This document shows positions 48,781 to 64,000 of a DNA stretch of 64,000 nucleotides, piece after piece. Below the pieces are notes generated by a model, which did not search any database, was not told where the DNA came from, and saw only the letters and a program-made list of their open reading frames with translations. The stretch is taken from assembly GCA_020723325.1 (NCBI GenBank), contig DYJD01000002.1:285629-349628 (forward strand), in the 5' to 3' direction. The number at the start of each line of letters is the position of its first letter. The stretch's first letter is position 1. The DNA comes from Desulfosudis oleivorans (GTDB lineage: Bacteria; Desulfobacterota; Desulfobacteria; Desulfobacterales; SURF-7). The translations under genes were made by a program, and so were the position numbers.

Positions 48781-48962
48781 TCGCCGGGAAATATCTTGCT
48801 CTATTTTCTACTTTTTTCTAGGACCACATAGTTTTCCCTTTTCACACCTTTTTTCAGTTGAAATAAACCTTTTCCATGAATAGCTCTTGAAATCCGACCT
48901 GATCAAAGCGTATAATTTTTCAATATTTGGTAGATAGATAGACCCCAACCAAAAGGCGCGTC

Positions 48963-49901
48963 ATGACCGTCAGGCTCTATTGGATCCAGTGCGGAGGGTG
49001 CGGCGGGGACACTTGGTCCCTGTTCAACGCCGAGACTCCGGATGTAATCGAACTCCTCAACCTGCTGAACATCGAACTGCTCTGGCATCCGTCGATTTCC
49101 AATAAATCCATCCGCGCCCAGGAGCAAACCATCGAAGGCCTGCTGTCCGGCGAGGAAAAACTGGACATCCTGTGTGTGGAAGGCTCCATTATCCGCGGGC
49201 CGGGGGGCACGGGCATGTATGATGAGGCCTACGGCGCGCCCAAAAAGAATCTTGTGGCCTCCCTGGCCAAACAGGCGCGGCATGTGCTGGCCGTGGGCAC
49301 TTGCGCCAGCTTTGGGGGCATCGGTGCGGACGGCGAGATCGAGGCCACGGGCATGCAATTCCATAAATGGTCCAGGGGCGGTTTTCTAGGGGAGGATTTT
49401 CGTTCCAAAAGCGGACGGCCGGTGATCAATCTGCCCGGCTGCCCATGCCATTGCGATATCCTTGCCGGCACCCTGGCAGCCCTGGTGACCGGCCAGGAAA
49501 TGGAACTCACCGGCCATAATACCCCCCTGGAATGGTACGGCATGATGGTGCATCAGGGCTGTACGCGCAACGAATACCATGAATTTCGCGTGGAGGAAAA
49601 ACAGTTCGGTGAAAAAGGCTGTATGTTTTTTCACTTGGGATGCCACGGCCCTTTGGCCACCGGCCCTTGCAACAAGCGCCTGTGGAACCGCCGCTCCTCC
49701 AAAACCCGGGTGGGCGTGCCCTGTTTCGGCTGCACCCGCCCTGATTTTCCCCAGCAGTATTCCTTTTTTGAAACACGCAACATCGAAGGCATCCCCATTG
49801 AACTGCCCGACGGTGTCAGCCGCGCCCATTATCTGGCTTATAAAGGCATGGCCGCGGCAGCAGCGCCGGAAAGGCTGAAAACCAGGAAAACCGAAATTTG
49901 A
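48963..49901 (+). CDS. hoxB: Regulatory [NiFe]-hydrogenase small subunit (HoxB/HupU type)
   Basis: 312 aa with no Tat signal, unlike energy-conserving periplasmic hydrogenases. Cys ligands for the Fe-S clusters are seen at WIQCGGCGG, GTCASFGG and GCPCHCD, and in the C-terminal half at HQGCTRNEYHEF, GCMFFHLGCHGP, GPCNKRLWN and CFGCTRPDFP, the pattern of a three-cluster small subunit. A cytoplasmic location, the partner's lack of a C-terminal peptide and a histidine kinase directly after the large subunit support a group 2b H2-sensing hydrogenase. The start of the large subunit overlaps the stop of this gene by 4 nt. Confidence 0.85.
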   Translation: MTVRLYWIQCGGCGGDTWSLFNAETPDVIELLNLLNIELLWHPSISNKSIRAQEQTIEGLLSGEEKLDILCVEGSIIRGPGGTGMYDEAYGAPKKNLVASLAKQARHVLAVGTCASFGGIGADGEIEATGMQFHKWSRGGFLGEDFRSKSGRPVINLPGCPCHCDILAGTLAALVTGQEMELTGHNTPLEWYGMMVHQGCTRNEYHEFRVEEKQFGEKGCMFFHLGCHGPLATGPCNKRLWNRRSSKTRVGVPCFGCTRPDFPQQYSFFETRNIEGIPIELPDGVSRAHYLAYKGMAAAAAPERLKTRKTEI

Positions 49902-51412
49902 GCAGCCAACGTAAAAGCATTCAAATCTATCCCCTGAATCGTGTGGAAGGGGATTTGAAAATCCGGCTGGAAATCCATGACGGTGTGGTGACCGATGCCT
50001 GGAGCGCCGGCACCATGTACCGAGGCTTTGAAAATATTCTGAAAGGGCGGGGCGCCTTGGACGGCCTGGTGATCACCCCGCGCATCTGCGGGATTTGCAG
50101 CACCGCTCATCTGAAAGCTGCCGCCAAGGCCCTGGACATGATTTCCAGGGTCAAGGTTCCGGAAGATGCCATGCGCATCCGCAATGCCACCCTGATGGTG
50201 GAAATGCTCCAGAATGATATCCGTCAGAGTTGTCTGCTGTTCATGAGCGATTTTAGCCGGGTGGTTTATCAACACCACTCCTTGTATGCCGAGGCCATCC
50301 AGCGCTATACCGCCCTTACCGGCACCGTTTTCCGGCAGGCCTTGCATTGGACCAAAAAAATTCTTGAGATCGTGGCAATTCTGGGGGGACAATGGCCGCA
50401 TTCATCCTTCATGGTGCCGGGTGGTGTGGTTTCGCTGCCCAGCAGCAACGAGATCATGCAATGCCGCTACCTGCTCAACAGCTTCCGGACCTGGTATGAA
50501 ACCGAATTCCTTGGTTGCAGCCTGGAACGCTGGGCGGAGATCAAAAGCCTTGACCATTTGGAAACCTGGCTCACGGAAAAGCCGACCCATACCCATAAGG
50601 AAATGGGTTTTTTCATCCGCTTTGCCAAGGAAGCCCGGTTGGACGAAATCGGCAGGGGGCACGGTCATTTTCTCAGTTTCGGCGGCTTGGATTTGCCGGC
50701 CGATACTGCGGTCAGGCCTTTAGCCGGCGGCAACACCTTGATCCCTGCCGGTTTCATGGCCCATGGGCAAGCCTGTGCTCCCTTTTCCCAGGCCGAAATC
50801 TCCGAAGACATCACCCATGCCTGGTTCAACAGTCAGCCCACGGCCCACCCCTATGAAGGTGCAACCCATCCTTATGCCACGGGCAGTGAAAGCGAAAAAT
50901 ATTCCTGGGCCAAAGCGCCCCGTTATGCGGGCCATCCTGCTGAAACCGGGCCCCTTGCGGAGTTGATGATCGCCGGCAATCCATTGTTTACGGATCTGGT
51001 CGGCCCAAAGGGCCCCACGGTTTTTTCCCGGCAACTGGCCCGGCTGCTCCGACCGGCTGTGCTCATGCCGGCCCTAGAACAATGGCTGAAGGAAATCCGA
51101 CCCCAGGAAAAACATTTCTTTAAACAATACGAGCGCCTTGAAACCGGCGAAGGCCATGGGCTGATTCAGGCGCCGCGGGGCGCCCTGGGTCATTGGGTGA
51201 AAATTCAAGACAGCAAGATCGCCCAATACCAGATCATCACCCCCAGCACCTGGCACGCTTCCCCCCGGGACAAGGCCGGTATAAGAGGCCCCTGGGAACA
51301 AGCCCTGATCGGCACGGCCATGGGCCATCCGGAAGACACCGTCAAGGTGGATCATGTTCTGCGCTCTTTTGATCCCTGCCTGGTTTGCACGGTGCATACT
51401 GTTCAATTGTAA
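49898..51412 (+). CDS. hoxC: Regulatory [NiFe]-hydrogenase large subunit (HoxC/HupV type)
   Basis: 504 aa. The two NiFe cysteine pairs are present: RICGICSTAH near residue 64 and DPCLVCTVH at the C-terminus. Only four residues (TVQL) follow the last His, whereas catalytic hydrogenases carry a 15-aa or longer peptide that a maturation protease removes. Sensor hydrogenases such as Ralstonia HoxC lack this peptide, so the sequence fits a regulatory enzyme. No maturation (hyp) genes are in the window. It is directly followed, 11 bp later, by a PAS histidine kinase. Confidence 0.87.
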   Translation: MSSQRKSIQIYPLNRVEGDLKIRLEIHDGVVTDAWSAGTMYRGFENILKGRGALDGLVITPRICGICSTAHLKAAAKALDMISRVKVPEDAMRIRNATLMVEMLQNDIRQSCLLFMSDFSRVVYQHHSLYAEAIQRYTALTGTVFRQALHWTKKILEIVAILGGQWPHSSFMVPGGVVSLPSSNEIMQCRYLLNSFRTWYETEFLGCSLERWAEIKSLDHLETWLTEKPTHTHKEMGFFIRFAKEARLDEIGRGHGHFLSFGGLDLPADTAVRPLAGGNTLIPAGFMAHGQACAPFSQAEISEDITHAWFNSQPTAHPYEGATHPYATGSESEKYSWAKAPRYAGHPAETGPLAELMIAGNPLFTDLVGPKGPTVFSRQLARLLRPAVLMPALEQWLKEIRPQEKHFFKQYERLETGEGHGLIQAPRGALGHWVKIQDSKIAQYQIITPSTWHASPRDKAGIRGPWEQALIGTAMGHPEDTVKVDHVLRSFDPCLVCTVHTVQL

Positions 51413-51423
51413 AGGTAACAACC

Positions 51424-53619
51424 ATGACGAAAACAATCAACAACTGCTGCCGCCTGCACGGCTTTGAAGCCATGGGCAGCCGCCTGACAGAAGCGGATAT
51501 CCGCGCCGTCATGGAAGAAAATCGCGTTCTGCGGGAAGAAATCCGCGTGGCCCGCAAAGCCGCCCAGATCACCGCTGATCTCGTGGTAAAGCAATTCGAG
51601 GAAACTGAAAAAATCCTGCATCGCTTTCAAATGGCCAATGCCATGCGCAAAGCCGTGCTGGATTCCGCTTCCCAGATGGCCATCGTGGCTGCCGACAAGC
51701 GCGGCATCATTATTGTCTTCAATGCCGGCGCCGAAAATCTCCTGGGCTATCGGGCCAAGGATATCATCGGCCGGGCCACCCCGGAATTGTTTTTGCTCAC
51801 CGCGGATCTTACCGCCCATGGGACTGAACTGGTGGGTAGTTGCGACAAAGTGGATGGGATGGATCTTTTCCTTGCCCTGGCCGAGCAGCGGGACGCCAAA
51901 CCCCGGGAGTGGACCTTTGTGCGCAAGGACGGCGGCCATTTTCCCGTGCGCATGTCGGTCAACGCCTTGCAGGACGCCGAAGGGGCCACCAGCGGTTTCC
52001 TGCTCATCGCCAATGACATTTCAGAGCAGAAACGTTCTGAAAAAGCCCTGATGGAAAGCGAGCTCAACTATCGCCTGCTGCTGAAAAACCTGCCCAATGT
52101 GGTTTTCAAGGGCTATGCCAACGGCGACATTGATTTCATCGACGATAAAATCGAGGCCCTGACCGGTTATGCCAAAGAAGAGTTTTTATCCGGAAAAAAG
52201 AAATGGCTGGATATCGTGGTGGCAGAAGACCTGGATTATGTCAAACAAATGTTCATCCAGGCCCTGAAAGCCGACAAATCCTATATCCGCGAATACCGCA
52301 TCCGCGCAAAAAACGGGGAGATCTTCTGGATCGAGGAGGGCGGCCAGATCATTTGCGATGAAACCGGCCATATCGATTTTGTCATCGGCGCCTTTCTCAA
52401 CATCACCATGCGCAAGCTGGCGGAAAAGGCTTTGCTCGAATCCGAGGCCAAGTACCGATCCCTGTTCAATGCCGGTCCGGATCCCATCCTGGTGTTGGAT
52501 AAGGAGACCTTTGAAATTCTGGATGCCAATCCCAGGGCTGCGGAAACCTTTGCCCAGGAGAAAAAAGACCTGGTCGGCAAAGTGTTTACGGATTTCGGTG
52601 CCTTTGAATACGACGACCACCGGCCGGCCCGGATCCGTACGGAAGGCTGGCCGGCCAACGGCGTGGTGATCCAGCGCCTGCGCGACCCCAAGACCGACTG
52701 CAATCTCTATATCAAAATCAAGGCCAGCCCCACCATTTACAAGGGTAAAACGGCCACCATCCTGGCCGGCACGGATATCACCGAGGTGATTGAAAAGGAC
52801 GCCCAGCTTATCCAGGCCAGCAAAATGAGCACCCTGGGGGAAATGTCCGCCGGCATTGCCCATGAACTGAACCAGCCCCTGAACGCCATCAAACTGGGCA
52901 ATGAATTCCTGAAAACCATGCTCAACCGGCGTCTGCCAATACCGGACAAGGATTTGCTGCATGTGGTATTGGAGGTGAATGAACAGGTTGAGCGGGCCTC
53001 GGATATCATCAACCGTCTGCGGGCCTTTGGCCGTAAGACTGAAAATGTCAAACAGACAGTGGATATCAACGAACCGGTCCTGGGGGTGCTGAAAATCATC
53101 GGCGAGCAACTCAAGCTGGAAAGCATCCAGGTGGCACTGGACCTGACGGAAAATCCGCCCGCTGTCCTGGCTCAGCGCAACCGGCTGGAGCAGGTGCTCT
53201 TCAATCTGATCACCAATGCCCGGGACGCCATCAACAAAAAGAGAAATGAAGCGCCTGAATTCCAGGATCACCGCATCACCATCACCACCTTTTTCCAGAA
53301 CCAGCGCGTGGGCGTTGCCGTGAGCGACACCGGCATAGGGGTTCCCAAGGAAATCCGCAACAAAATCTTCGAGCCCTTTTTCACCACCAAGGAAGTGGGA
53401 ACCGGCATGGGTCTGGGACTGTCCATCATTTACGGCATCATCCGGGATTACGGAGGCGACATTGTGCTGCACAGCGAAGAGGGCCGGGGCAGCACGTTTA
53501 CCTATTCATTTCCATGCGCGGAAATGATGGCGCCAAGGCCTATCCCTGCACCCAATCCGACAACAAGGGCGGCGATGTCAGCCGCGCCGACGGAACCGAC
53601 CAATCATACCCGGCGGTGA
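51424..53619 (+). CDS. Three-PAS cytoplasmic histidine kinase, partner of the H2 sensor
   Basis: 731 aa from the ATG at 51424. An N-terminal coiled coil ([18 protein letters not shown]) is followed by three PAS domains (about 75-195, 205-330, 335-455), then HisKA with phospho-accepting His480 in [12 protein letters not shown]. The HATPase has [10 protein letters not shown] (N box), DTGIGVP (G1) and [10 protein letters not shown] (G2). No membrane segment is seen. The position after hoxBC corresponds to HoxJ/HupT, the kinases that read the hydrogenase signal. Its last 27 codons overlap the tail of the convergent DisA_N gene. The kinase core is closely related to two kinases encoded by the opposing operon. 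Confidence 0.9.
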
Positions 53620-54976
53620 GTTTAACGCCGCCCTTGATCACCGAAACAGGACGATCCGCCGAGACCACCACTACCAAGATCCGTTCATGCTCGGCCGTGA
53701 ACCGCAAGGCGGAATTGAAACGGGCGCCCCGGGAGCGGTCCTCGGCCGCCACGGCGCGACCGTCCAGGATGCAGGCAAAACCGTGGATATGCAGGTCGGC
53801 GCTGATATGCAGGGCGCCGTCCAGCTTGGCCAGGGATTTGGTCAGGGAAAGAATGACGGGATCTCTCAGGTCAAGGGGCGTTTCCAGGTGCTGACCCGCA
53901 ATTTGAATGGGTTCCGGATTCATATCGATCACCAGGGTGCAACCGAATTTTTGGCCTTCGGCATAGTGGACGATGTCGGCAATGGTCTGGAACAGATCAT
54001 GGGCCTGGTGCGGTGGGTCAAAATGGGCTTCCAGCAACACTTCCTCCAGTTCCACCATTTTGGCCCGGCGGGTAAAGGAATAAAAATTGCCGTCGGAAAA
54101 GCTGCAGATGGGATCATCCCCAAGTTTCAGAAAACCATGGCCGCCGCGAAAATCCGCCACAAGGCGCACCATGGAAAGCTCACTGCCGGCTATCCCCACG
54201 ATTTTGTTTCCGTCTGAAATCAATTTGCGGTCCGAACCTTCCACGGCCTGGAGCAATTTACGCACGTGTTTGAACTTCTTCAAGTCCGGCCGCTCATTCA
54301 GGGGGAAGCGGGCCAGAAATTTTAAAAAGCTCACCGTGCGCGGTTCCATGAAAACCAGTTCTCCCCTGGGCCACAAACCTTCTTCCATGGTCCGGGAAAT
54401 TCCCAGAACCGCATCCAAAATGGGATAGATGCGCAACTGGATATCCATGCCGATCCTGCGGGTCAATTCATCCACCAGGCAATCCCGCACCGCATGGGGG
54501 GCGTATTCGCGGATCACATAGCTGGATTCGCCTGTATAATCGGCGTCGTTCCGGACCACATCCTGAGCCAGCAGCCAGACGGCGCGCTCCAGCCAGCGTT
54601 CTGTCGGGCCGGTGGCGCACATGTCCGGATGGTGTTCGGTAAACCACATCTGGTAGAATATGGAGCTGGAACGCCCGCCGATGGAAATCAGCCCGGCCAG
54701 ATTGAGTCCGGGTTCGGGCAGGGGCTGGCTGAAATGCCGCAGATTGCGGACCTGTTGGTTGTTATCCCGCCAGGTATCGGAGGTGAGATAAATTTCAGTA
54801 AGCCTGGGCTCATGCCCGCGCAACAAGGAATGGGGGTCATAGATCCGCAAGGACGAATCCGGCCGGTCGGCGTAAATGACGGCCACCCGGCTCTGGCCGG
54901 AAAAATGGGACAAGGCCTCTTGTAGACTCTCAATAATCTGAAAAATGCTGATTTTGCCGATGATGGAATCTGTCAT
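53540..54976 (-). CDS. DisA_N (diadenylate cyclase-like) protein with N-terminal sensor-type region
   Basis: 478 aa. The C-terminal 130 residues resemble the DAC/DisA_N domain: DGA at residues 386-388 (LDGALHISADLHIHGFACILDGR) and RGARFNSALRFTAEH around residue 419, where canonical DACs have a TRHR/RHRxA motif. The first 350 residues include two mixed alpha/beta parts I do not recognise; proteobacterial DAC proteins often carry such predicted sensor domains. It would form c-di-AMP or a related nucleotide if active; the changed motif leaves this open. It overlaps the receiver gene by 4 nt, so it is likely its output partner. Confidence 0.78.
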   Translation of the reverse strand: MTDSIIGKISIFQIIESLQEALSHFSGQSRVAVIYADRPDSSLRIYDPHSLLRGHEPRLTEIYLTSDTWRDNNQQVRNLRHFSQPLPEPGLNLAGLISIGGRSSSIFYQMWFTEHHPDMCATGPTERWLERAVWLLAQDVVRNDADYTGESSYVIREYAPHAVRDCLVDELTRRIGMDIQLRIYPILDAVLGISRTMEEGLWPRGELVFMEPRTVSFLKFLARFPLNERPDLKKFKHVRKLLQAVEGSDRKLISDGNKIVGIAGSELSMVRLVADFRGGHGFLKLGDDPICSFSDGNFYSFTRRAKMVELEEVLLEAHFDPPHQAHDLFQTIADIVHYAEGQKFGCTLVIDMNPEPIQIAGQHLETPLDLRDPVILSLTKSLAKLDGALHISADLHIHGFACILDGRAVAAEDRSRGARFNSALRFTAEHERILVVVVSADRPVSVIKGGVKLTAGYDWSVPSARLTSPPLLSDWVQG

Positions 54977-55386
54977 GACGGCGTTGCTTCCGATGGCTGA
55001 CCGCCGTGGCCCTGCCCGGCCGACTGTAGTCGCCCTTCAGCGTTTTTAAGGGCTTTTTCCAGGGCATCCTTCTCAATGGGCTTATGGATAAAATCGCTGG
55101 CTTTCAGATCCAGAGCCTTTTTGGCCAGATCCACATCCCCATGGCCGGTGATGACGATGACTTCTACACCCGGATCAATTTCCTTGATCTTGCGCAGCAC
55201 GGAAAAGCCATCCATGCCCGGCATTTTGATATCCGTCAGCACAATGCGCGGATTTTCGCGCTGGAAAAGTTCGATCCCGGTCGGCCCGTTTTCAGCCGTG
55301 AGCACTTCATAGCCAAGGGCGCCCAGCAAAAGGCGCGACATGGCCAAGGTGGGTTTTTCATCATCAATGATCAGAATTCTAGTCAT
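54973..55386 (-). CDS. Stand-alone response regulator receiver protein
   Basis: 137 aa. Receiver domain only: acidic pocket IIDDEKP, phospho-acceptor Asp52 in LTDIKMPGMDGF, Thr in VITGHGD and Lys in DFIHKPIEKDA. No output domain; the last 25 residues are a short charged tail. It lies between a membrane kinase gene (100 bp upstream) and the DisA_N gene (4-nt overlap), so it probably relays phosphoryl signals to that protein or to an unlinked output. Confidence 0.92.
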   Translation of the reverse strand: MTRILIIDDEKPTLAMSRLLLGALGYEVLTAENGPTGIELFQRENPRIVLTDIKMPGMDGFSVLRKIKEIDPGVEVIVITGHGDVDLAKKALDLKASDFIHKPIEKDALEKALKNAEGRLQSAGQGHGGQPSEATPS

Positions 55387-55486
55387 GCCGATTTTTCCTC
55401 ATCCTCCCATTATTGATCATGGATAGCTGTCTTCCCCTGTATTCATCCCGTATCCCGCGGCGCGCCTCCGGAATTTTTCTAATTAA

Positions 55487-57361
55487 CTACAAAACCGCGG
55501 GGAAACTCAAGGTAAAAGTCGTACCCCGCTCCTGACAACTTTCAAAACTGATTTCACCGCCGTAGTCCTTGACAATGCCGTAGATAATGGAAAGGCCGAG
55601 GCCCATACCCTTGCCGGCCTCCTTGGTGGTGAAAAACGGTTCAAAAATTTTGTCACGAATTCCCTTGGGAATCCCGCTGCCGTTGTCCGATACGGCCAGG
55701 AACACCCGTTTCCTGTCTTGAAAAGTCCGAATACGGATGGTGCCGGTCACACGCCCTTGGTCCGACGCCTGCTTGTGGCCGATGGCGTCCATGGCATTGG
55801 TAATCAAATTCAAGAGCACTTGTTCCAGACGATTGTTATGGGCCATCACCTTTGCAAGCTCCGTCCCCAGATCCAGTTCGACGTGAATGTTTGCAAGCTG
55901 AAGCTGCCGGCCGATCATACCCAGGACCCCGTGAACCGGTGTATTCAGATCCACCTGCTCCTTGGTAAAATCGGTTTTGCGGCCGAATTCCCGCAGACGG
56001 TTGATGATGGCAGAGGCCCGGTTGACCTGGTTGCCGACTTCCGTGGCCACCTGGAGCAGATCCTGATTCGAAATTTCCCGGTTTTGGGCGACCATCAGTT
56101 TCAAATATTCATTGCCGACCTTGATGGCGTTGAGCGGTTGATTCAGCTCATGGGCCACGCCGGCGGACATTTCCCCCAGACTGCTCATTTTGCTGACATG
56201 GATAAGCTGGGCATCTTTTTCGATCATGGCGGTGACATCGGTGACCGCCAGGATCAGGGCCTTGCGCTGCTTGTATTCCGTGGGGCAGGCTTTAAAACGG
56301 AAATACACCGGACGATTGTCGCCTTTGCGGTAGAAACGCACGTTTTCCGTGAGAATATAACCTTCGGGCCAGCCTTTGCGCGCCAGCTCCGAAAGGTCGC
56401 GATCCTCGTATTCAAACCGGCCGAAATCGGCAAAATACTTGCCGATCAAGACTTTCCTGGGATAGCCGTAGGTTTCTTCCGCACTGGGATTGGCATCCAG
56501 AATTTCCATGGTGCCGCGGTCCAGAACAAAAATGGGGATGGGGCCGCTGTTGAAAAGGGAGCGGTATTTGCCTTCGGATTCCTTGAGCTCCTGCTGGCTG
56601 CGGAAGAGCTGAACCGTCATGTTGTTGAAAGAGTGCGCCAGTTGGATGACCTCATCCCCCGGCGGTCTCTCCGGCAAAAGACTGCCGCCCTGATTAAGCT
56701 CCCCTGAAAAATGGCTGCGGCAAATCTCATTGGATAGCTCGGTCAACTGGGAAATCGGCCGGGTGATATAGCGGGCCAGCAACTGGCTGACGGCGAAAAA
56801 GAAAATAGTGATGAAGGACAAAAAACCAACAAAGGTGGTGCGCAGCTTACCGATCAATTGATCAATGTGTTCCTTTTTAAAACCCACATGCACAGTGCCG
56901 ATCTGGTCGATGCCCGCGCGGATGGGCAGGGCAATGTCATAGGCTGAAGCGCCCGACACAGCCACCAGCCTGGTACTGTGGGAGGCCTCCTTGGGAAGCT
57001 GGTTGGCCGAGGACAGACCTTCTGGAAACACATCCATGAACGTATGGGCCAGCACCCGATTGCCGGGATCCGCAATGAAGATGTAGGCCACTAGGGATTC
57101 GCGCAATCCCAAGCGCGCTTCGAAAAGCAGCCGGGTGAGTTCCGTTGTTTTCTCTGAGAGAATATAACCGCGGCTGCTGTCCGCAATCCGCTCGGCGATG
57201 TCGCGGCCGCGCAACACAAGCTCATCTGTTAGACTGGAAATCAGCACCCAGCGGGTGAACAGGGCGATAATGAAACTCAGGAGCAGGATCACCGTGAGGG
57301 AGGAAAAAAAAATTTTATTCTTCAGACTGACTTCCCTGAATTTCCGTAAAAAGAGATTCAT
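55487..57361 (-). CDS. Membrane-bound PAS/HAMP histidine kinase
   Basis: 624 aa. A first membrane segment ([19 protein letters not shown]), an extracytoplasmic region of about 135 residues of the single-Cache type, and a second segment ([24 protein letters not shown]) precede a HAMP and one PAS domain ([34 protein letters not shown]). HisKA has His404 in [12 protein letters not shown]. The HATPase shows [17 protein letters not shown] and [10 protein letters not shown]. It shares long identical stretches with the H2-linked kinase. A 19-bp gap separates it from the upstream RND-kinase gene. Confidence 0.92.
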
Positions 57362-57380
57362 GATATCAACAATTTCGCCC

Positions 57381-60371
57381 TCATGCTTCCCGGATCGGAA
57401 AACTGAGCACTATGGTTGTTCCCAGTCCTTGCCGGCTTTCAATCTCCATGCGGCCATGATAATCCCGGACGATTTCATTGGCAATGGAAAGCCCCAGGCC
57501 TTTGCCCTTGCCGGTTTCCTTGGTGGTGAAAAAGGGCTCCAAAACCCGCTCGCGCAAATGCAGGGGAATGCCGATACCCGTATCACTCACCGCCGCCTTC
57601 ACCCGCTGGTTGTCCAGATAGCTCCGCACCCGGATGGCGTGCCGGACGTCGGTTTTTTCGGCCTTGACCTTGTTGATCGCTTCGCCGGCATTAATGATCA
57701 GGTTGTAGAATACCTGACCCAAACGATGATGATGGCCGGCGATGGGCGGCAAATGATCATCCAGATCCAGGATCAGCTCGATATCATCCAGGCTGAGTTG
57801 GTGTTTCAGGATAGCGGCGGTGTCCTGAATGGGACGATTGATGTCCACTACCTCCTTGGCAAAGGCCGGTTTCTCGCCGAAGACCTGCAGGCGCTGGATG
57901 ATTTCCGCAGCGCGATCCACCTGGGTACCCAGTTCATTCACCACTTCTGACAAATCTTCTTTTTTAATCTCTTCGCCTTGCTGGAGCATAATCTTCAGGA
58001 ACTCGCTGCCCATTTTAATGGCATTCAAGGGCTGGTTCAGTTCATGGGCCACACCGGCGGATATGCCGCTCAAGCTGGGCATGAGCCGCAACAGATCCCA
58101 GGCCGTGACCAGCTCCACATGGAGCAAAAGGGCCGGCAGCAAGATCAAATCACCGATTAAAGCGCAAACAATGGTAATGACCATCAAGAAGCCGAAAATC
58201 GCCGTGGGGAGGAAATGGGAGAACATCAATAGGGAAAAACCCAGGCCGATGGTCAGGGTGAAAAAAACCATGGGCTTGCCCACGCTCAAGATGCTGTCCC
58301 GCAAGGCGCGATCCTTGTCCAGGTCCTTCTTGAATTCCCGGTAATAGCGGGTCAAGTAGTGAATGATGTCATCCACGGCCAGACCGATGGCAATACTGGC
58401 GATCAGGCCGGTGGCCATGTTCAGCTCAATACCGAACCAGCCCATGATGCCGAAAGTGGTCAGGATGGGGAAGGTATTGACCAAAATGGCCACGAGTCCC
58501 ACCTTTGCCGACAAAAAAAGCACAAACATCATGGCAAAGATAAGCGCCATGGTGGAAATGAGGCTGTTGACCTGGCCCCGGGCCAACTGGTCGCTGCTTT
58601 CGGAAACCACCATGCCCACACCGGTCACCTTGACGCCAGGGCCGCCCTGTAACTCCTGTTGGGCATAAGCCATGATTTTTTCCCGAAGGGCAAGAAATTC
58701 CTTGGAGCTTTCGAGATGGGTCAACAGCAGAATATTGGCTTTTGAAAAGGAATCATTCATAAAAGGCGCAAGCATGTCCTGGCCGAGGATCATTTTATAA
58801 TTGTTGACCAGCATGCGGATTTCAAAGGTTTCGGTGGGCAGCGAATAAAATCGGGGGTCGTATTTATTCACCACATAGTTGACCAGTTTGAGGTAGTCGG
58901 CAAAGGAAACCGTTTTATCCACTTTGGGCAGGGTTTCTAGAAATTTTTGCAGGGCGATGATACTCGCCACCTTCTCCGGTGCTTCGAAATAATCCTCGGC
59001 CGGACTCTCCATCACTACATGGATGGGAAAACTGCCGGATAGATCCTTGTATATGTCGTGAAAATTGCGGCGCACCGGCGTGTCTTGCTTGAAATAGGAG
59101 ACCGGATTGGTTTCAACTTGCAGGAAAAACACCCCGGCTGTGCAGATCACCAGAATGGCCCCGGCCGTGAGCAGCAGATAGCCCTGGGCCTGGGAAACCA
59201 TCTGCACCACCCGGTTGAGAAAGCTTTCCAAGACCCGCCGGAATCCGGTAGGCCGGATGTTGCTGCGCAAGCGGGCAGGGGGGATGATGGCAAAAAGCGC
59301 CGGCAGCAGTGAAAGGAGGAGGAACAACAGCAGCAACATGCCGATCCCTGCAAAAATCGCGAATTCGCGGATGGCGGCAATATGCAGGATCAGCAGCGAG
59401 CCGAAACCGATCAAGTCCGTTAAGACCGCCAGGGAGGTGGGCAGGGCCATTTCCATGAAGGTTGTGATCACGGCCGCCTGGGCTGTTTCCGCAGCCTGCA
59501 TGTTCTCAAGCATGGCCGCGCAAATGTGGCTGCAATAGGCCGTACCCACAGCCACAATGAAAACCGGCACGATCATGGTCAACATGGAAAAGGGCACCCG
59601 TGTCCAAGCCATGATGCCGAAGGTCCATACCAGCGCCAGCGAAACCGCGGCCAGGGGAACAAGGGTGTACCAGATATTGCGGTATAAATAATACAGCAGG
59701 GCGGTGATCAGCAAGAAAATCAGCGGCAGAAGCACCATGAGATCCTTGTGAATATAGTGGGTCAAAGCCTCGGAAACCAGCGGGATGCCGATTTGATAGC
59801 GCTGGAAATCCGCTTGAATTTGAAGGAGAGCCTGTTCCACCGCCATAATGACCCTATGGATATCCGCGCTTTGGTCCAGAACCAAGGTAATCGCGCTGGT
59901 GTTGCGATCCTGGGAAATGAGATTCTTCTTGAACAATTCAATGGTCCCGCAGATCTCTGCAAATTTTTCAAGGGACCACTGGTTGCGTGGATCCACATCT
60001 TTTTTAATGCTCGGCAGGCTGATCACCCGGCGCACCCCCGGAATGCCGGACACCACACCGGAGACTTGCTCCAATTGATAAAAGAATTCAGGACTGAACA
60101 CATTCCGGCCTTTGACTACGATGCGGATGATGTCGTCTGAACCAAACACTTTTTGAAATTCGCGATATTCCTTGGCAGCGGGTAGATCTTCGATCACTAG
60201 GTCATAAATGGAGGTGCGCACGGACAGGCCTGGAAGCCGCCAACCCAAGATCAGGGTAAGCAGCGCAATCAGCACCAGAACAGCCTTGGGATGATGAACC
60301 TGCAAGGCCAATAAACTGCGGCTGGCTTTGCGAATGGAAAACCGTTCTCGATAAGATGCGTTTGAACGCAT
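57381..60371 (-). CDS. RND/MMPL-family transporter fused to a histidine kinase core
   Basis: 996 aa. Residues 1 to about 750 form a full RND-type exporter of the MMPL/COG1033 kind: first segment AVLVLIALLTLILGW, two large periplasmic loops (about 50-210 and 430-600), two blocks of five to six membrane segments (for example MLTMIVPVFIVAVGTAYCSHICAAM and VGLVAILVNTFPILTTFGIMGWFG). Directly after the last segment a complete kinase core follows: His776 in [18 protein letters not shown] box NLIINAGEAI, DTGIGIP and GKGKGLGLSI. No frameshift lies between the parts. It heads the operon with the second kinase, receiver and DisA_N gene. It could be a transporter-sensor for a hydrophobic ligand. Confidence 0.88.
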   Translation of the reverse strand: MRSNASYRERFSIRKASRSLLALQVHHPKAVLVLIALLTLILGWRLPGLSVRTSIYDLVIEDLPAAKEYREFQKVFGSDDIIRIVVKGRNVFSPEFFYQLEQVSGVVSGIPGVRRVISLPSIKKDVDPRNQWSLEKFAEICGTIELFKKNLISQDRNTSAITLVLDQSADIHRVIMAVEQALLQIQADFQRYQIGIPLVSEALTHYIHKDLMVLLPLIFLLITALLYYLYRNIWYTLVPLAAVSLALVWTFGIMAWTRVPFSMLTMIVPVFIVAVGTAYCSHICAAMLENMQAAETAQAAVITTFMEMALPTSLAVLTDLIGFGSLLILHIAAIREFAIFAGIGMLLLLFLLLSLLPALFAIIPPARLRSNIRPTGFRRVLESFLNRVVQMVSQAQGYLLLTAGAILVICTAGVFFLQVETNPVSYFKQDTPVRRNFHDIYKDLSGSFPIHVVMESPAEDYFEAPEKVASIIALQKFLETLPKVDKTVSFADYLKLVNYVVNKYDPRFYSLPTETFEIRMLVNNYKMILGQDMLAPFMNDSFSKANILLLTHLESSKEFLALREKIMAYAQQELQGGPGVKVTGVGMVVSESSDQLARGQVNSLISTMALIFAMMFVLFLSAKVGLVAILVNTFPILTTFGIMGWFGIELNMATGLIASIAIGLAVDDIIHYLTRYYREFKKDLDKDRALRDSILSVGKPMVFFTLTIGLGFSLLMFSHFLPTAIFGFLMVITIVCALIGDLILLPALLLHVELVTAWDLLRLMPSLSGISAGVAHELNQPLNAIKMGSEFLKIMLQQGEEIKKEDLSEVVNELGTQVDRAAEIIQRLQVFGEKPAFAKEVVDINRPIQDTAAILKHQLSLDDIELILDLDDHLPPIAGHHHRLGQVFYNLIINAGEAINKVKAEKTDVRHAIRVRSYLDNQRVKAAVSDTGIGIPLHLRERVLEPFFTTKETGKGKGLGLSIANEIVRDYHGRMEIESRQGLGTTIVLSFPIREA

Positions 60372-60549
60372 GGTGCCGCCCCTGCCTGAAGATATTCCTC
60401 TGCTTTTGTAAAATTTAACATATCGGCGGTTTTAAATGCTGTCAATTGCTAATTCAGGGATTTGCGCTGATTGCGTATTGACATTCTTTCACGGCAACAG
60501 GTAAGGATGGCCTATCCAACTCTAATCCGAAACAAAAGGAGGTATTCTG

Positions 60550-60978
60550 ATGATCGGTAAAACCTTTGATGAACTCACGGTCGGTGACACAGCGGAATTT
60601 GCAAAAACCATTTCGGAATCGGATGTATATTCCTACGCCGGTATTACCGGTGATTTAAATCCTGCCCATGTGAATGAAGCCTATGCGGAAAAAACCTTTT
60701 TCAAAACCCGCATCGCCCATGGGATGCTGGTGGGCGGGCTGATCTCCACGGTTATCGGCACCCAGTTGCCGGGACCGGGGACGATTTATATGAAGCAGTC
60801 CCTCTCCTTTCTCGCACCGGTTAAGATCGGCGATACCATCACCGCCCGGGTGACCGTGCTTGAAAAACTTCCGGAAAAAGGGCGTATCCGCCTGAAAACC
60901 ACCTGCATCAACAAGGAGGGCGCGGTGGTCATTGACGGCGAAGCCCTGGTAAGTCCGCCCCGGCCGGCCAAAGCTTGA
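60550..60978 (+). CDS. phaJ: MaoC-like (R)-enoyl-CoA hydratase
   Basis: 142 aa with AAAGGAGG before the ATG. The hydratase-2 motif GDLNPAHVNEAYA carries the catalytic Asp and His, followed by RIAHGMLVGGLIS. The single-hotdog length matches PhaJ, which turns trans-2-enoyl-CoA from beta-oxidation into (R)-3-hydroxyacyl-CoA for PHA synthase. It lies next to the phasin/phaR cluster, supporting this role. Confidence 0.9.
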   Translation: MIGKTFDELTVGDTAEFAKTISESDVYSYAGITGDLNPAHVNEAYAEKTFFKTRIAHGMLVGGLISTVIGTQLPGPGTIYMKQSLSFLAPVKIGDTITARVTVLEKLPEKGRIRLKTTCINKEGAVVIDGEALVSPPRPAKA

Positions 60979-61019
60979 TTCCGGTTTGGATTCAAGGCCG
61001 GATCAAGAGCGTGGGTAGA

Positions 61020-61065
61020 AAAAGACAAAGCCGATGCCCTCGGACATTTCCGGCGGCATCGGCTT
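61020..61065 (-). terminator. Terminator of the phasin/PhaE operon
   Basis: AAGCCGATGCC (61028-61038) pairs with GGCATCGGCTT (61055-61065), an 11-bp perfect stem. On the minus strand it is followed by TTTGTCTTTTTC, the T-rich run of an intrinsic terminator. It lies 13 bp after the PhaE-like stop and also stands after phaJ on the plus strand. Confidence 0.75.
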
Positions 61066-61078
61066 CAATAGCGGCTTA

Positions 61079-61630
61079 TTATTCTCGTTCCGCAGGCGGG
61101 GTTGGTGCCGGAGAATAGTTGAAGAGCTTTTCCGTGTTTTTAATAAGCTCTTGAAACTGCTCGGTTTGTTGGGCGATCATGCGCTTGAAATCCTTTACGA
61201 CCATGCTTTGATCCCCATTCTCTTCTTTTTGCATCATGCGCAGGTGCTTGACGGTTTCCTCAAGGTCCGCTATCCGTTGTTTCATGGCCTCGCATTTTTG
61301 AACAACCCGCATATGCTCCTGCTTGGGTACCACACCCATGAAATCGTAAAATCCGGAGAGGGAAGCCTGGAGATCCTGCATGGATTTCTCCCATGAACGC
61401 GCCTGGGGCGGAATCGGATCGGTTTTATCCTCTTCCTTTTTACCAGCACTTTTTTCTGAATTACCAGCCGGGCCCAAGGTTTGGTTGCATAACTTGGTCC
61501 ATGCCTCCATTCCATTCAGGCCCAGCTTCATCCCCTGGTGCATCCATTTGGTCATGCTCTCCATCTGTTCCTGGCTTTTGGCCATGTTGATCAGCGCGTT
61601 TCCCCAGAATTCCAGTAACTGTTTATCCAT
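61079..61630 (-). CDS. PhaE-like PHA synthase/granule-associated protein
   Basis: 183 aa from the ATG at 61630, with GAGGAGC upstream. Mostly helical: LLEFWGNALINMAKSQEQMESMTKWMHQG, then GFYDFMGVVPKQEHMRVVQKCEAMKQRIADLEETVKHLRMM (coiled coil). It ends with a Pro-rich tail. The middle helix (FYDFMGVVPKQEHMRV...LEETVKHLR) resembles PhaE subunits of class III synthases, which activate PhaC. It is the distal gene of the phasin operon. A phasin role is the alternative. Confidence 0.7.
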   Translation of the reverse strand: MDKQLLEFWGNALINMAKSQEQMESMTKWMHQGMKLGLNGMEAWTKLCNQTLGPAGNSEKSAGKKEEDKTDPIPPQARSWEKSMQDLQASLSGFYDFMGVVPKQEHMRVVQKCEAMKQRIADLEETVKHLRMMQKEENGDQSMVVKDFKRMIAQQTEQFQELIKNTEKLFNYSPAPTPPAERE

Positions 61631-61683
61631 CGGAAGCTCCTCGGGTTGATCCGCATTCGCCTGCAGATTAATGGTAGTAAACA

Positions 61684-61947
61684 TCAACCACCGGTTTTGA
61701 AGAAAGTCTCAACTTTTTCAAAGGCATTATCCACCAGCTTTTTATATTCTTCCCGGCCTTTCTTACAAGCACTGACCCATTCCTGAACTGCCTTCTTGCC
61801 TTCCTCCGGCAGCCAAGTGGCCTGATTGATCATTGATCCGGCCATGACCTCGGATTGATCCTGAACCATGATCATGGCATTAAAAGTATTGTTGAACGAA
61901 GTCCTGTTAAAATCAAGCATCTGTTTAAAAATCAATTTTGGGTCCAT
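61684..61947 (-). CDS. Small phasin-like protein, copy 1
   Basis: 87 aa. Helical, with LIFKQMLDFNRTSFNNTFNAMIMVQDQSEVMAG, QATWLPEEGKKAVQEWVSACKKGREEYKKLVDNAFEKVETFF. The same skeleton (two amphipathic helices joined at PEEG) is found in the next two genes, showing tandem duplication. Phasins coat PHA granules; the neighbourhood with PhaE-like, phaJ and phaR supports this. Confidence 0.78.
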   Translation of the reverse strand: MDPKLIFKQMLDFNRTSFNNTFNAMIMVQDQSEVMAGSMINQATWLPEEGKKAVQEWVSACKKGREEYKKLVDNAFEKVETFFKTGG

Positions 61948-62010
61948 TTGCTTACCTCCTTAGTAAGTATTGTCATCACTAGCTAGACTTTTTTTCAATT
62001 CATGCCCGAA

Positions 62011-62274
62011 TTAATTGGCAGCACCAAAAAAGGTTTCAATTTTTTCAAAACCGGCATCTGCATTGTGCTTATAGTTATCACGCTCTTTTTTATAGGCATC
62101 AATCCATTCATTGATCAGACTTTTGCCTTCTTCAGGAATCCAGGCCGCTTGATCCAGGATCGTGCGGGAGAATCTTTCCGTCTGATCCTGCAGCATCACC
62201 AGTGCGTTGAAAGAATTATTAAAGATGTTCTTGTTAAAATCAATCGCCTGTTTGATAAGTTTTTTTTGATCCAT
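62011..62274 (-). CDS. Small phasin-like protein, copy 2
   Basis: 87 aa from the ATG at 62274, with GGAGGGCA upstream; the longer frame starting at 62325 lacks a ribosome site. It shares with copy 1 the pattern DFNKNIFNNSFNALVMLQDQTE, AAWIPEEGKSLINEWIDAYKKERDNYK, GFEKIETFFG. The same length as copy 1 and the high similarity point to recent duplication. A granule coat role is inferred. Confidence 0.8.
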   Translation of the reverse strand: MDQKKLIKQAIDFNKNIFNNSFNALVMLQDQTERFSRTILDQAAWIPEEGKSLINEWIDAYKKERDNYKHNADAGFEKIETFFGAAN

Positions 62275-62330
62275 TGTACTGCCCTCCTTTATTTGAAATT
62301 CATGGTCCCTTGTTTGCTCTGTCAAACATT

Positions 62331-62618
62331 TTATTTGATCTTCTTCGGCTTTTCCACATCTGTCCAGGCAAAAAGGCCCAGGTACTGGTCGAAATTCTCA
62401 TCCAGTGCTTTTTTTACAAAGGTGCGGCCTTTTTTTATTTCCTTGGTCCATTCTTCAATGAACCGGCTGCCTTCTTCCACCAAGGCATTGCGTTGGTCCA
62501 ATACGGTGCGACCGGTTCTTTCCAACTGGTCCTGCCAAAGGGCCACCGAAGTCCATACATTATCTAGAACGGTACGATTCAACTCGATTACCTGCTGAAC
62601 AAGTATTGTGTTTTCCAT
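62331..62618 (-). CDS. Small phasin-like protein, copy 3
   Basis: 95 aa, AAGGAGGC before the ATG. It aligns with copies 1 and 2 (IELNRTVLDNVWTSVALWQDQLERTGRTVLDQR, EEGSRFIEEWTKEIKKGRTFVKKALDENFDQYLGLF) but is more diverged and has an extra C-terminal tail. It is first in the operon, downstream of a TTGACA-type promoter. Confidence 0.78.
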   Translation of the reverse strand: MENTILVQQVIELNRTVLDNVWTSVALWQDQLERTGRTVLDQRNALVEEGSRFIEEWTKEIKKGRTFVKKALDENFDQYLGLFAWTDVEKPKKIK

Positions 62619-62661
62619 GGTCCGCCTCCTTTTTTGCTTGTTGTGTCTTACGTTTGATCAC

Positions 62662-62765
62662 AAGATAGCACGCGCTGTGGTATTGTCAACCCTAAAAATG
62701 TTGCAACGCACAATTTTTTTATCAGGATTGCTTTATTCCCTTTTCATATATAATATAGGTGCAAC
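62662..62765. promoter_or_regulatory. Divergent phasin/phaR promoter region with GTTGCA-type sites
   Basis: For the phasins (minus), TTGACA at 62684-62689 and TATCTT at 62662-62667 are 16 bp apart. For phaR (plus), a perfect TATAAT lies at 62749-62754. Between and beside them are the palindrome GTTGCAAC (62700-62707) and GTGCAAC (62759-62765); TTGTTGCAA also occurs at 63342-63350 before the DUF3141 gene. The repeated TGCAAC core is a candidate PhaR operator. Confidence 0.55.
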
Positions 62766-62795
62766 AAAGATAAGCTGCTGCCAGGAGGGTGACCC

Positions 62796-63317
62796 ATGGT
62801 GAATACAATATTGCTTAAAAAATATACCAACCGTCGGCTGTATGACACGGAAAAAAGCCGCTATGTAACCCTGGAAGAAGTCGCTGGAATGGTCAGGCAG
62901 GGCACTCCAGTAAAAATCGTGGACGCCAAAACCCAGGAAGACGTAACCGCCTTTATCCTAACCCAGATCATTACAGAGGAAGCCAAGAAAAAGAACATCT
63001 TGATGCCTGTTCCGGTCCTGCATCTGATTATTCGCTATGGTGACAATCTGCTGGGTGATTTCATGGACAACTACCTGCAGCAAGCTATCCAGAACTATCT
63101 GAAATATAAAAAGGCTTTTGATGACCAGATGAAAAAGTGGCTGGAAATGGGCATGGACCTGACCGTTATGCTGCCCAAACCGCCGCCGGGAACAGTTCCC
63201 TTTGGAAACCTATTTGATTTATTCAATTATGGTGGACCCAGCGCAACGGCTGAAGAAAAAGCACCCGCACCCCCGGGGGACCCCTCGCCGACCAAGGATG
63301 AAAACCAAGAGCATTGA
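62796..63317 (+). CDS. phaR: PHA synthesis repressor
   Basis: 173 aa. The N-terminal DNA-binding domain is characteristic: LLKKYTNRRLYDTEKSRYVTLEEVAGMVRQGTPVKIVDAKTQEDVTAFILTQIITEEAK, followed by the PHB_acc repeat region (GDFMDNYLQQAIQNYLKYKKAFDDQMKKWLEMG). PhaR binds PHA and, when granules are missing, represses phasin and its own gene. It is divergent from three phasin genes and its own promoter holds repeated TGCAAC sites. Confidence 0.93.
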   Translation: MVNTILLKKYTNRRLYDTEKSRYVTLEEVAGMVRQGTPVKIVDAKTQEDVTAFILTQIITEEAKKKNILMPVPVLHLIIRYGDNLLGDFMDNYLQQAIQNYLKYKKAFDDQMKKWLEMGMDLTVMLPKPPPGTVPFGNLFDLFNYGGPSATAEEKAPAPPGDPSPTKDENQEH

Positions 63318-63400
63318 CACACATCCCCATCGACCCTATCTTTGTTGCAAGGCACAAAACGCCGGGCGCGCGTTTAAAAAGAGTGCAAAGGAGGGTGACG

Positions 63401-64000
63401 ATGAATCTTATAAATCCCAAACAAGTACTATCCCAAAAAGCGGAACTGAACCGAGCTGCCTATGAATATCTGGTGGACACGGCCCAACGGTCGGTCCTTT
63501 TCATGGACACCTTACGAAAACGCGGCAATGATTATTTTGATCAAATCCGCAAGGGCAAGCCGCCGGTCTTGACCTTTGATTATGAAGTCATTCTGAATGG
63601 GCGCGATTTACAGCAGCCGGTGGCCTTTTCACTGGCGCGCATCCATGATCGACGGGACCCGCTTCAAGCCAAAACCACGGACGGGCTCGAGAAACGCCTA
63701 AGCGATTCAAACAATACAGCCGGGCTTGATCCCCAAAAGCGACCGGTGATTATTATTGATCCCCGGGCCGGGCATGGGCCGGGCATCGGTGGTTCTAAAA
63801 GAGATTCGGAAATCGGTATGGCCTTGAATCATGGCCATCCGGTCTATTTTGTCATTTTCGAGGCCGAGCCTTTGCCGGATCAAACCCTCACCCAGGTGCA
63901 CCATGCACAAATCAGTTTTATCGAAGAAGTCATTCGGCGGCATCCTGCCGCCCCGAAACCGGCTGTCATCGGTAATTGCCAAGCCGGATGGGCTTCAGCG
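63401..64000 (+). CDS. DUF3141-family protein, 5' part (right edge cuts it)
   Basis: 200 codons visible from the ATG at 63401, preceded by AAGGAGG. The frame reads AAYEYLVDTAQRSVLFMDTLRKRGNDYFDQIRKGKPPVLTFDYEVILNGR, then RPVIIIDPRAGHGPGIGGSKRDSEIG and PAVIGNCQAGWA. The last motif fits a hydrolase elbow (GNCQAG) like that of PHA synthase/depolymerase relatives. DUF3141 proteins are frequent in PHA-accumulating proteobacteria. The role is unproven. Confidence 0.8.
   Translation, partial: MNLINPKQVLSQKAELNRAAYEYLVDTAQRSVLFMDTLRKRGNDYFDQIRKGKPPVLTFDYEVILNGRDLQQPVAFSLARIHDRRDPLQAKTTDGLEKRLSDSNNTAGLDPQKRPVIIIDPRAGHGPGIGGSKRDSEIGMALNHGHPVYFVIFEAEPLPDQTLTQVHHAQISFIEEVIRRHPAAPKPAVIGNCQAGWASA

Follow-up and report, generated by a model that had tools for sequence, protein, structure and literature searches.

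Group 2b regulatory [NiFe] hydrogenases of the HoxBC-HoxJ-HoxA type have HoxA as their usual partner, and many-to-one two-component systems with stand-alone receivers exist elsewhere. Group 2c is classed in HydDB as putatively diguanylate cyclase-linked; that source proposes a second-messenger output through c-di-GMP and lists the role of these hydrogenases as undetermined (PMC5037454). The locus described here lies in a 64,000-nucleotide stretch of DNA of Desulfosudis oleivorans, which belongs to an order of sulfate reducers (the window: positions 285629-349628 of contig DYJD01000002.1, C13 in our numbering, in a 7.2-Mb genome). It encodes the two subunits of a sensory-type [NiFe] hydrogenase (HoxB and HoxC), a PAS kinase (HK1), a membrane kinase (HK2), a fusion of an RND transporter-like part with a kinase (RND-HK), a stand-alone receiver and a protein with a diadenylate cyclase (DAC) domain. 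An original prediction, made from the letters alone, had named these seven genes; the list of open reading frames (ORFs) and the domain scan returned all of them in place and with the domains it had assigned, hk1 starting 11 bp after hoxC as it had said.

We consider it probable, judging from the sequence, that the genes form a two-component hub of the many-to-one kind, built on a sensory hydrogenase that lies close to group 2c. In our proposal, H2 would react at HoxBC, an N-terminal helix of HK1 would carry the resulting change on to the PAS and kinase domains, and HK1 would phosphorylate the stand-alone receiver at D52. HK2, with a Cache sensor, and RND-HK, with a transporter-like sensor, are predicted membrane kinases that share its type of core and would act on the same receiver, so that H2 would be merged with two envelope signals. 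What we computed is which genes are present and how they are conserved, how the kinases are related, that catalytic motifs are kept, and the HK1 signature described below; phosphotransfer, the response to H2 and the contact between helix and HoxBC are what we infer.

An alignment of eight HoxB sequences was scanned against 84,980 species genomes and 194 relatives were confirmed; all counts out of 80 below refer to the best 80 of them (L141-L220, 61-79 % identical). The window resembles group 2c in that the nearest HoxC reference is an Ideonella hydrogenase, which adjoins a diguanylate cyclase/phosphodiesterase, and in that receiver-GGDEF proteins lie near this hydrogenase in 17/80 relatives, with another GGDEF protein in 2/80 (L163 and L197, in L197 as the transducer). 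It differs in that HoxC is only 44 % identical to the Ideonella reference, that HK1, two more kinases and a stand-alone receiver are present, that no GGDEF domain was found among the proteins scanned at the locus, and that the Ideonella locus lacks the HK1 signature. With group 2b the window shares a two-subunit hydrogenase beside a histidine kinase and a short C-terminal tail on the large subunit. Unlike group 2b, it shows 37-38 % identity to the references, and neither an NtrC-type activator, whose absence had been predicted, nor any sigma-54-activator domain was found among the eight locus proteins scanned; the signature is also absent from two 2b loci, one of which has an annotated sigma-54 regulator. 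As in known many-to-one systems, several kinases of one clade stand with one receiver; unlike in those systems, one input is a hydrogenase and one an RND fusion.

Genes that accompany the hydrogenase and the kinship of its kinases

An HK1-type kinase (core 55-62 % identical) and a stand-alone receiver (57-66 % identical) lie beside HoxBC in 16/80 relatives (L143, L144, L151, L153, L155, L158, L166, L168, L169, L172, L175, L176, L181, L184, L185 and L187). RND-HK is found upstream of HoxBC on the same strand in 12/80, and in 10/80 RND-HK, HoxB, HoxC, HK1 and the receiver are all co-directional in one cluster, the receiver standing between RND-HK and HoxB in L151, L153 and L158. These five genes are present in the named strain Desulfatibacillum alkenivorans DSM 16219 (L155), where the kinase is of the HK1 type; in the remaining two RND-HK loci (L146 and L148), which lack the full set, the contigs end early. 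Because this five-gene cluster is conserved in relatives, the two converging operons of the window would belong together as one system, and the coupling that the original prediction had inferred thus gains backing from synteny. Co-occurrence of all seven genes, which it had offered as a check, was seen for these five and not for the DAC gene: the hydrogenase-kinase part travels with the receiver and not with the DAC gene. A receiver-NtrC-type protein follows the kinase in 2/80. Another hydrogenase large subunit is present in six of the 12 RND-HK loci; in L144 a HyaD-type protease (name read from sequence) lies between this other hydrogenase and RND-HK, members of the same protease family also occur in L146, L148 and L155, and a HypF-like gene (name likewise read from sequence) follows the receiver in L144 and L181.

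The kinases themselves also point to a common system. In a whole-genome search the best matches of HK1 are HK2 (56 %) and RND-HK (49 %), the rest of the list of 84 matches being at most 40 % identical, and a search with the RND-HK core returns the same two kinases, HK1 and HK2, first; the three are thus mutual nearest paralogs among the matches listed. Together with the cores of nine relatives they form one group (SH-like approximate likelihood ratio test, SH-aLRT, 100), apart from 37 of the genome's own kinases, namely those that had a locus and matched over a sufficient length. Their phospho-accepting regions are mutually 55-69 % identical. The H, N, G1 and G2 boxes are present in all three, and the F box was found by pattern in HK1 and HK2 and by eye in RND-HK (LEPFFTTK). 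In the receiver, D8, D9, D52, T80 and K102 are invariant across eight sequences, and the next-best receiver of the genome (145 matches) is only 43 % identical. Since the three kinases form one clade and no second receiver of the genome is closely similar, we infer that HK1, HK2 and RND-HK share specificity for this one receiver.

Hydrogenase class and the N-terminal stretch of HK1

Window HoxC falls inside a 27-row group (SH-aLRT 99) in a quick tree with one to two references per group, a single one for 2c, and reference rows flagged as long branches; rows L139, L148, L188 and L194 were left out as short matches. In this tree, window HoxC and all its relatives are nearer to the diguanylate cyclase-linked Ideonella hydrogenase than to one 2a and two 2b references, which lie outside the 2c grouping (SH-aLRT 96 and 97). 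The hydrogenase thus appears to lie close to group 2c, and HoxBCJA, with which the original prediction had compared it, is not the nearest comparison. All four nickel-binding cysteines of L1 and L2 are kept (RICGICSTAH, DPCLVCTVH). The protein ends 4 residues past the L2 histidine and tails vary among relatives; HoxC thus lacks a conserved cleaved C-terminal extension, as is characteristic of regulatory hydrogenases. By eye, no signal peptide was seen at the HoxB N terminus. The short, variable HoxC tails and the missing signal peptide favour a cytosolic sensor. Note that the DPCxxC pattern is missing in 18/80 large subunits, 15 of which keep both cysteines, three being incomplete sequences; in those 15 another residue, in most cases alanine, stands in for the proline ahead of the first L2 cysteine (e.g. 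DACLVCTVH; L149, L152, L156 and twelve others). Other large-subunit matches in the same genome (C69, C12 and C105; L051, L059 and L060) contain an in-frame TGA, perhaps for selenocysteine.

A stretch of ~42 residues (27-69 of HK1) is conserved in the protein encoded after hoxC, with no Pfam match over it. A hidden Markov model (HMM) built from 71 relatives, with the window left out, scores window HK1 at 75.4 bits. Run against 16,706 ORFs of 393 loci, it matches 102 ORFs in 102 sensor-HoxB loci (some of these being duplicates, the same contig carrying two names), the sole other matches being two cuts of window HK1, while 242 of the 393 loci are without sensor HoxB. The signature is matched in 76/80, and in the four misses (L148, L188, L194 and L199) the hoxC ORF is followed by 355, 0, 0 and 594 bases. 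Since the 71 model rows match by construction, independent evidence comes from the window, from five more of the 80 loci and from the lack of matches elsewhere. Of the sensor-HoxB loci, 49 show no match; these end at most ~0.8 kb after hoxC or have an incomplete hoxC, with the exception of L070, which has 1.5 kb after hoxC and whose contig, in its other version (L212), has the transducer starting 1.3 kb after hoxC. By motif, 62 of the 76 carriers are kinases; the others comprise further kinases recognised by similarity, truncated ORFs, one PAS-GGDEF protein (L197:6846-8828) and one class III cyclase (L208:6325-7587). This stretch, which we assume to be helical, is probably the contact with the hydrogenase, and we regard the signature as a new mark of this hydrogenase's transducer. 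In titles and the beginnings of abstracts, a coverage that takes in few subscription papers, nothing was found that describes this locus, the HK1 helix or a link from H2 to a DAC protein. A second-messenger output of another kind, c-di-GMP, had already been proposed for group 2c (PMC5037454).

The DAC protein and the competing explanations

The DAC gene, called DisA_N in the original prediction, bore most of the novelty then claimed, and its link to the hydrogenase is a single-genome neighbourhood. No DAC gene was found at the homologous hydrogenase loci (0/80), nine of which have at most 1,068 bases after hoxC and so say little. The protein's type, DACND (the names DACND and DACNH reportedly come from a survey of DAC architectures), occurs in 24/395 phylum-sample genomes and 21/59 relatives (own genome included) and, by whole-protein search, in 141/389 genomes of the order (again including its own). 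We inspected 66 distinct other DACND places (23 from the phylum sample, 21 from relatives and 22 new ones of 30 order loci), with flanks of 1.5 to ~10 kb per side, contigs permitting: sensor HoxBC, HK1, RND-HK or their receiver were near none of them (0/66; receivers were found by tblastn at E 1e-4, at which more distant ones would be missed), and no neighbour family recurs widely in the loci compared.

The reading in best agreement with this distribution makes the DAC gene a bystander: a rearrangement would have put a resident DACND gene behind the receiver, where it would be co-transcribed and not a target, the receiver acting elsewhere. We give it a somewhat better than even chance, and it can hold together with the three-kinase hub, so that our confidences in the two overlap. 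The end of hk1 points the same way. HK1 extends ~30 residues past the point where seven compared homologs stop and dac retains W475, a C-terminal tryptophan shared by at least 90 % of the family's 40 aligned rows. From this, hk1 appears to have been cut off from its own stop codon at a rearrangement junction, so that it now reads into antisense dac. Against it stand the 4-bp overlap of receiver and dac, with the dac start codon at the same place as a homolog's start, and the three places, in three genomes of one other genus, where DACND directly follows a PAS-kinase-receiver hybrid (L284, L285 and L287; L285 was domain-scanned); the samples also held no second species of the window's genus. 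By rough estimate, 0.9-1.7 receiver neighbours are expected by chance in 66 places. A kinase and a small ACT-like protein (read from sequence) precede DACND in G395, of the same family, a kinase ends 0.6 kb upstream of DACND in G504, and a different hydrogenase lies within 20 kb of DACND in L045. Across the 389 genomes, HoxB of this type is present in 43, DACND in 141 and both in 28 (Fisher p 7e-5, a value that ignores kinship, genome size and completeness); in the five relatives first seen with both, they are on different contigs. This co-occurrence carries little weight, yet it is the sole statistic leaning to the earlier claim. Any functional link, with the divergent DAC gene as a candidate local output of the receiver, would rest on the 4-bp overlap in one genome, and we consider it rather unlikely.

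It is unlikely, in our view, that the two operons are unrelated neighbours and that HK1 uses a distant receiver. The convergent orientation and separate promoter-like sites would fit such a case, and so would G442, whose HK2 and HK1 arrangements lie on separate contigs, each with a receiver of its own.

The RND-HK arm as found in relatives supports the hub, and gives HK2 a place in it. RND-HK matches, with E up to 1e-120, were found in 51/389 genomes of the order, and 16 of the places were inspected. In G403 (of the window's family, L364) and G442 (L366), an uptake hydrogenase, a protease, three Hyp-like genes and an ApbE-like gene come first and the order continues with RND-HK, a periplasmic binding protein, HK2 and a receiver, with no HoxBC beside (ApbE, binding protein and HK2 of G403 and the binding protein of G442 were Pfam-scanned, the other names being read from sequence). 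In G433 (L365), a hydrogenase has RND-HK, a kinase and a receiver in its neighbourhood. G442 carries HoxBC, HK1 and a receiver on another contig (L118). The RND-HK proteins of the window and of G403 are sisters in the tree (SH-aLRT 99), and the window looks as if the two arrangements had merged and kept a single receiver. As a separate observation, the RND part occurs with a different C terminus in the hydrogenase gene clusters L368, L369 and L370, that of L370, the one domain-scanned, being cNMP-binding plus GGDEF.

Several points weigh against the hub as proposed. the receiver that once belonged to HK1 may be lost and HK1 may pair with another; the receiver tree, with 12 of 18 inner branches open, does not tell from which arrangement the window receiver derives; the kinase tree was built by a quick method and has long branches; L169 and L176 have ~10 kb upstream yet no RND-HK; the order of two converging operons occurs in no relative, and no output gene consistently follows the receiver among relatives. 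Against unrelated operons speak the five-gene cluster and the single receiver of this family in the genome, and we retain the hub.

As originally claimed, c-di-AMP would be under the control of H2, by way of the receiver and the DAC protein; we hold this to be quite unlikely. The claim is helped by the DAC domain, which scores 54 bits against the Pfam cut-off of 27, by DGA, kept in 40/40 rows including the window, by the receiver-dac overlap, and by the receiver-GGDEF proteins of relatives, a parallel with another cyclic dinucleotide. As in DisA/CdaA-type cyclases the DAC domain carries DGA; unlike in these, DACND and DACNH stand in front, and G-A-R-[FY]-N-S-A, found in 40/40 (window and 39 homologs), takes the place of RHR, two of whose three residues are lost. 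Synthesis of c-di-AMP cannot be assumed, since DacA with AAA in place of RHR neither bound ATP nor was active (PMC3328451). The strict conservation of R-[FY]-N, on its side, makes a dead domain less likely. Also against the claim, a separate DAC protein is encoded in the genome (G000:C97:35136-35486; L001, L050), with DGA, G-T-R-H-R and an N-terminal membrane-like region, its motifs being taken from its own sequence because its row is misaligned in the family alignment; no RF00379 riboswitch was found in the genome, and the receiver-dac pair was seen in no second genome.

Further searches gave little: a single-sequence structure prediction of the DAC protein was useless (mean predicted local distance difference test, pLDDT, 38.4), a PDB profile search with 12 DACND proteins found no solved relative, its 7 chance-level matches including no DAC, PADLOC gave no match, the one NCBIfam match, to an anti-phage model, was sub-threshold (72.9 bits against a cut-off of 630), and a literature search for DACND gave nothing. 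Three proteins on viral contigs (L390, L391 and L392) have a DAC domain with R-G-A-R-[FY]-N, that of L390 being DACNG-DACNH-DAC. A wider proposal, that the helix is a general plug through which this hydrogenase clade drives any domain that comes after it, be it in the histidine kinases, in the diguanylate cyclase of L197 or in the class III cyclase of L208, and that H2 and two envelope signals end in a divergent R-[FY]-N DAC making a nucleotide other than or besides c-di-AMP, seems doubtful when taken as a whole.

That HoxBC is a catalytic uptake hydrogenase and not a sensor is very improbable. In its favour, the solved structures closest to HoxC belong to catalytic enzymes (7uus/7utd, under the name hydrogenase-2 large subunit) and both metal-binding motifs, L1 and L2, are kept; against it stand the short tails, the same-signature transducer that follows wherever there is room, and the separate hydrogenase in half of the RND-HK loci.

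Layout of the locus and its meaning

The features are collected in Table 1. hoxB and hoxC overlap by 4 bp; on the minus strand the order is RND-HK, HK2, receiver and dac, with gaps of 19 bp and 100 bp and then a 4-bp ATGA overlap. Both operons are preceded by sigma-70-like matches (13 in the region against 8.2 in shuffles, weak evidence), and sigma-54-type sites across the window show no excess over chance (6 found, 7.06 expected). Beyond the locus, at 60550-64000 and divergent from RND-HK, lie genes for a MaoC-type hydratase, a PHB/PHA accumulation regulator and a DUF3141 protein, likely a polyester-storage cluster.

Table 1. Features of the hydrogenase-kinase locus (positions in the window)
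Feature	Position	Strand	Basis
hoxB, small subunit, sensory-type [NiFe] hydrogenase	48963..49901	+	ORF list, domain scan, N terminus by eye
hoxC, large subunit; RICGICSTAH and DPCLVCTVH, then only TVQL	49898..51412	+	ORF, domains, motif reading
hk1, three PAS, HisKA, HATPase; phospho-accepting His480 by motif	51424..53619	+	ORF, domains, motif
HK1 N-terminal conserved stretch, residues 27-69, proposed hydrogenase contact	51502..51630	+	HMM
hk1/dac tail-to-tail overlap, 80 bp, probable rearrangement junction	53540..53619	.	ORF ends compared with homologs
dac, DACND-DACNH-DAC protein; DGA at 386-388, R-F-N at 419-421	53540..54976	-	domains, alignment
Stand-alone receiver; D8, D9, D52, T80, K102	54973..55386	-	domains, alignment of eight sequences
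hk2, membrane kinase; sCache_3 (periplasmic Cache), HAMP, PAS, HisKA/HATPase	55487..57361	-	domains
RND-HK, MMPL and HisKA/HATPase fusion	57381..60371	-	domains
Sigma-70-like site upstream of hoxB	48887..48916	+	consensus match only
Sigma-70-like site upstream of RND-HK	60417..60445	-	consensus match only

H2 is a main currency between fermenters and sulfate reducers. The conserved cluster offers a defined set of kinases and one receiver, suited to phosphotransfer tests, and the HK1 signature is a concrete candidate for the contact between hydrogenase and transducer, carried by kinases as well as by one diguanylate cyclase and one class III cyclase.

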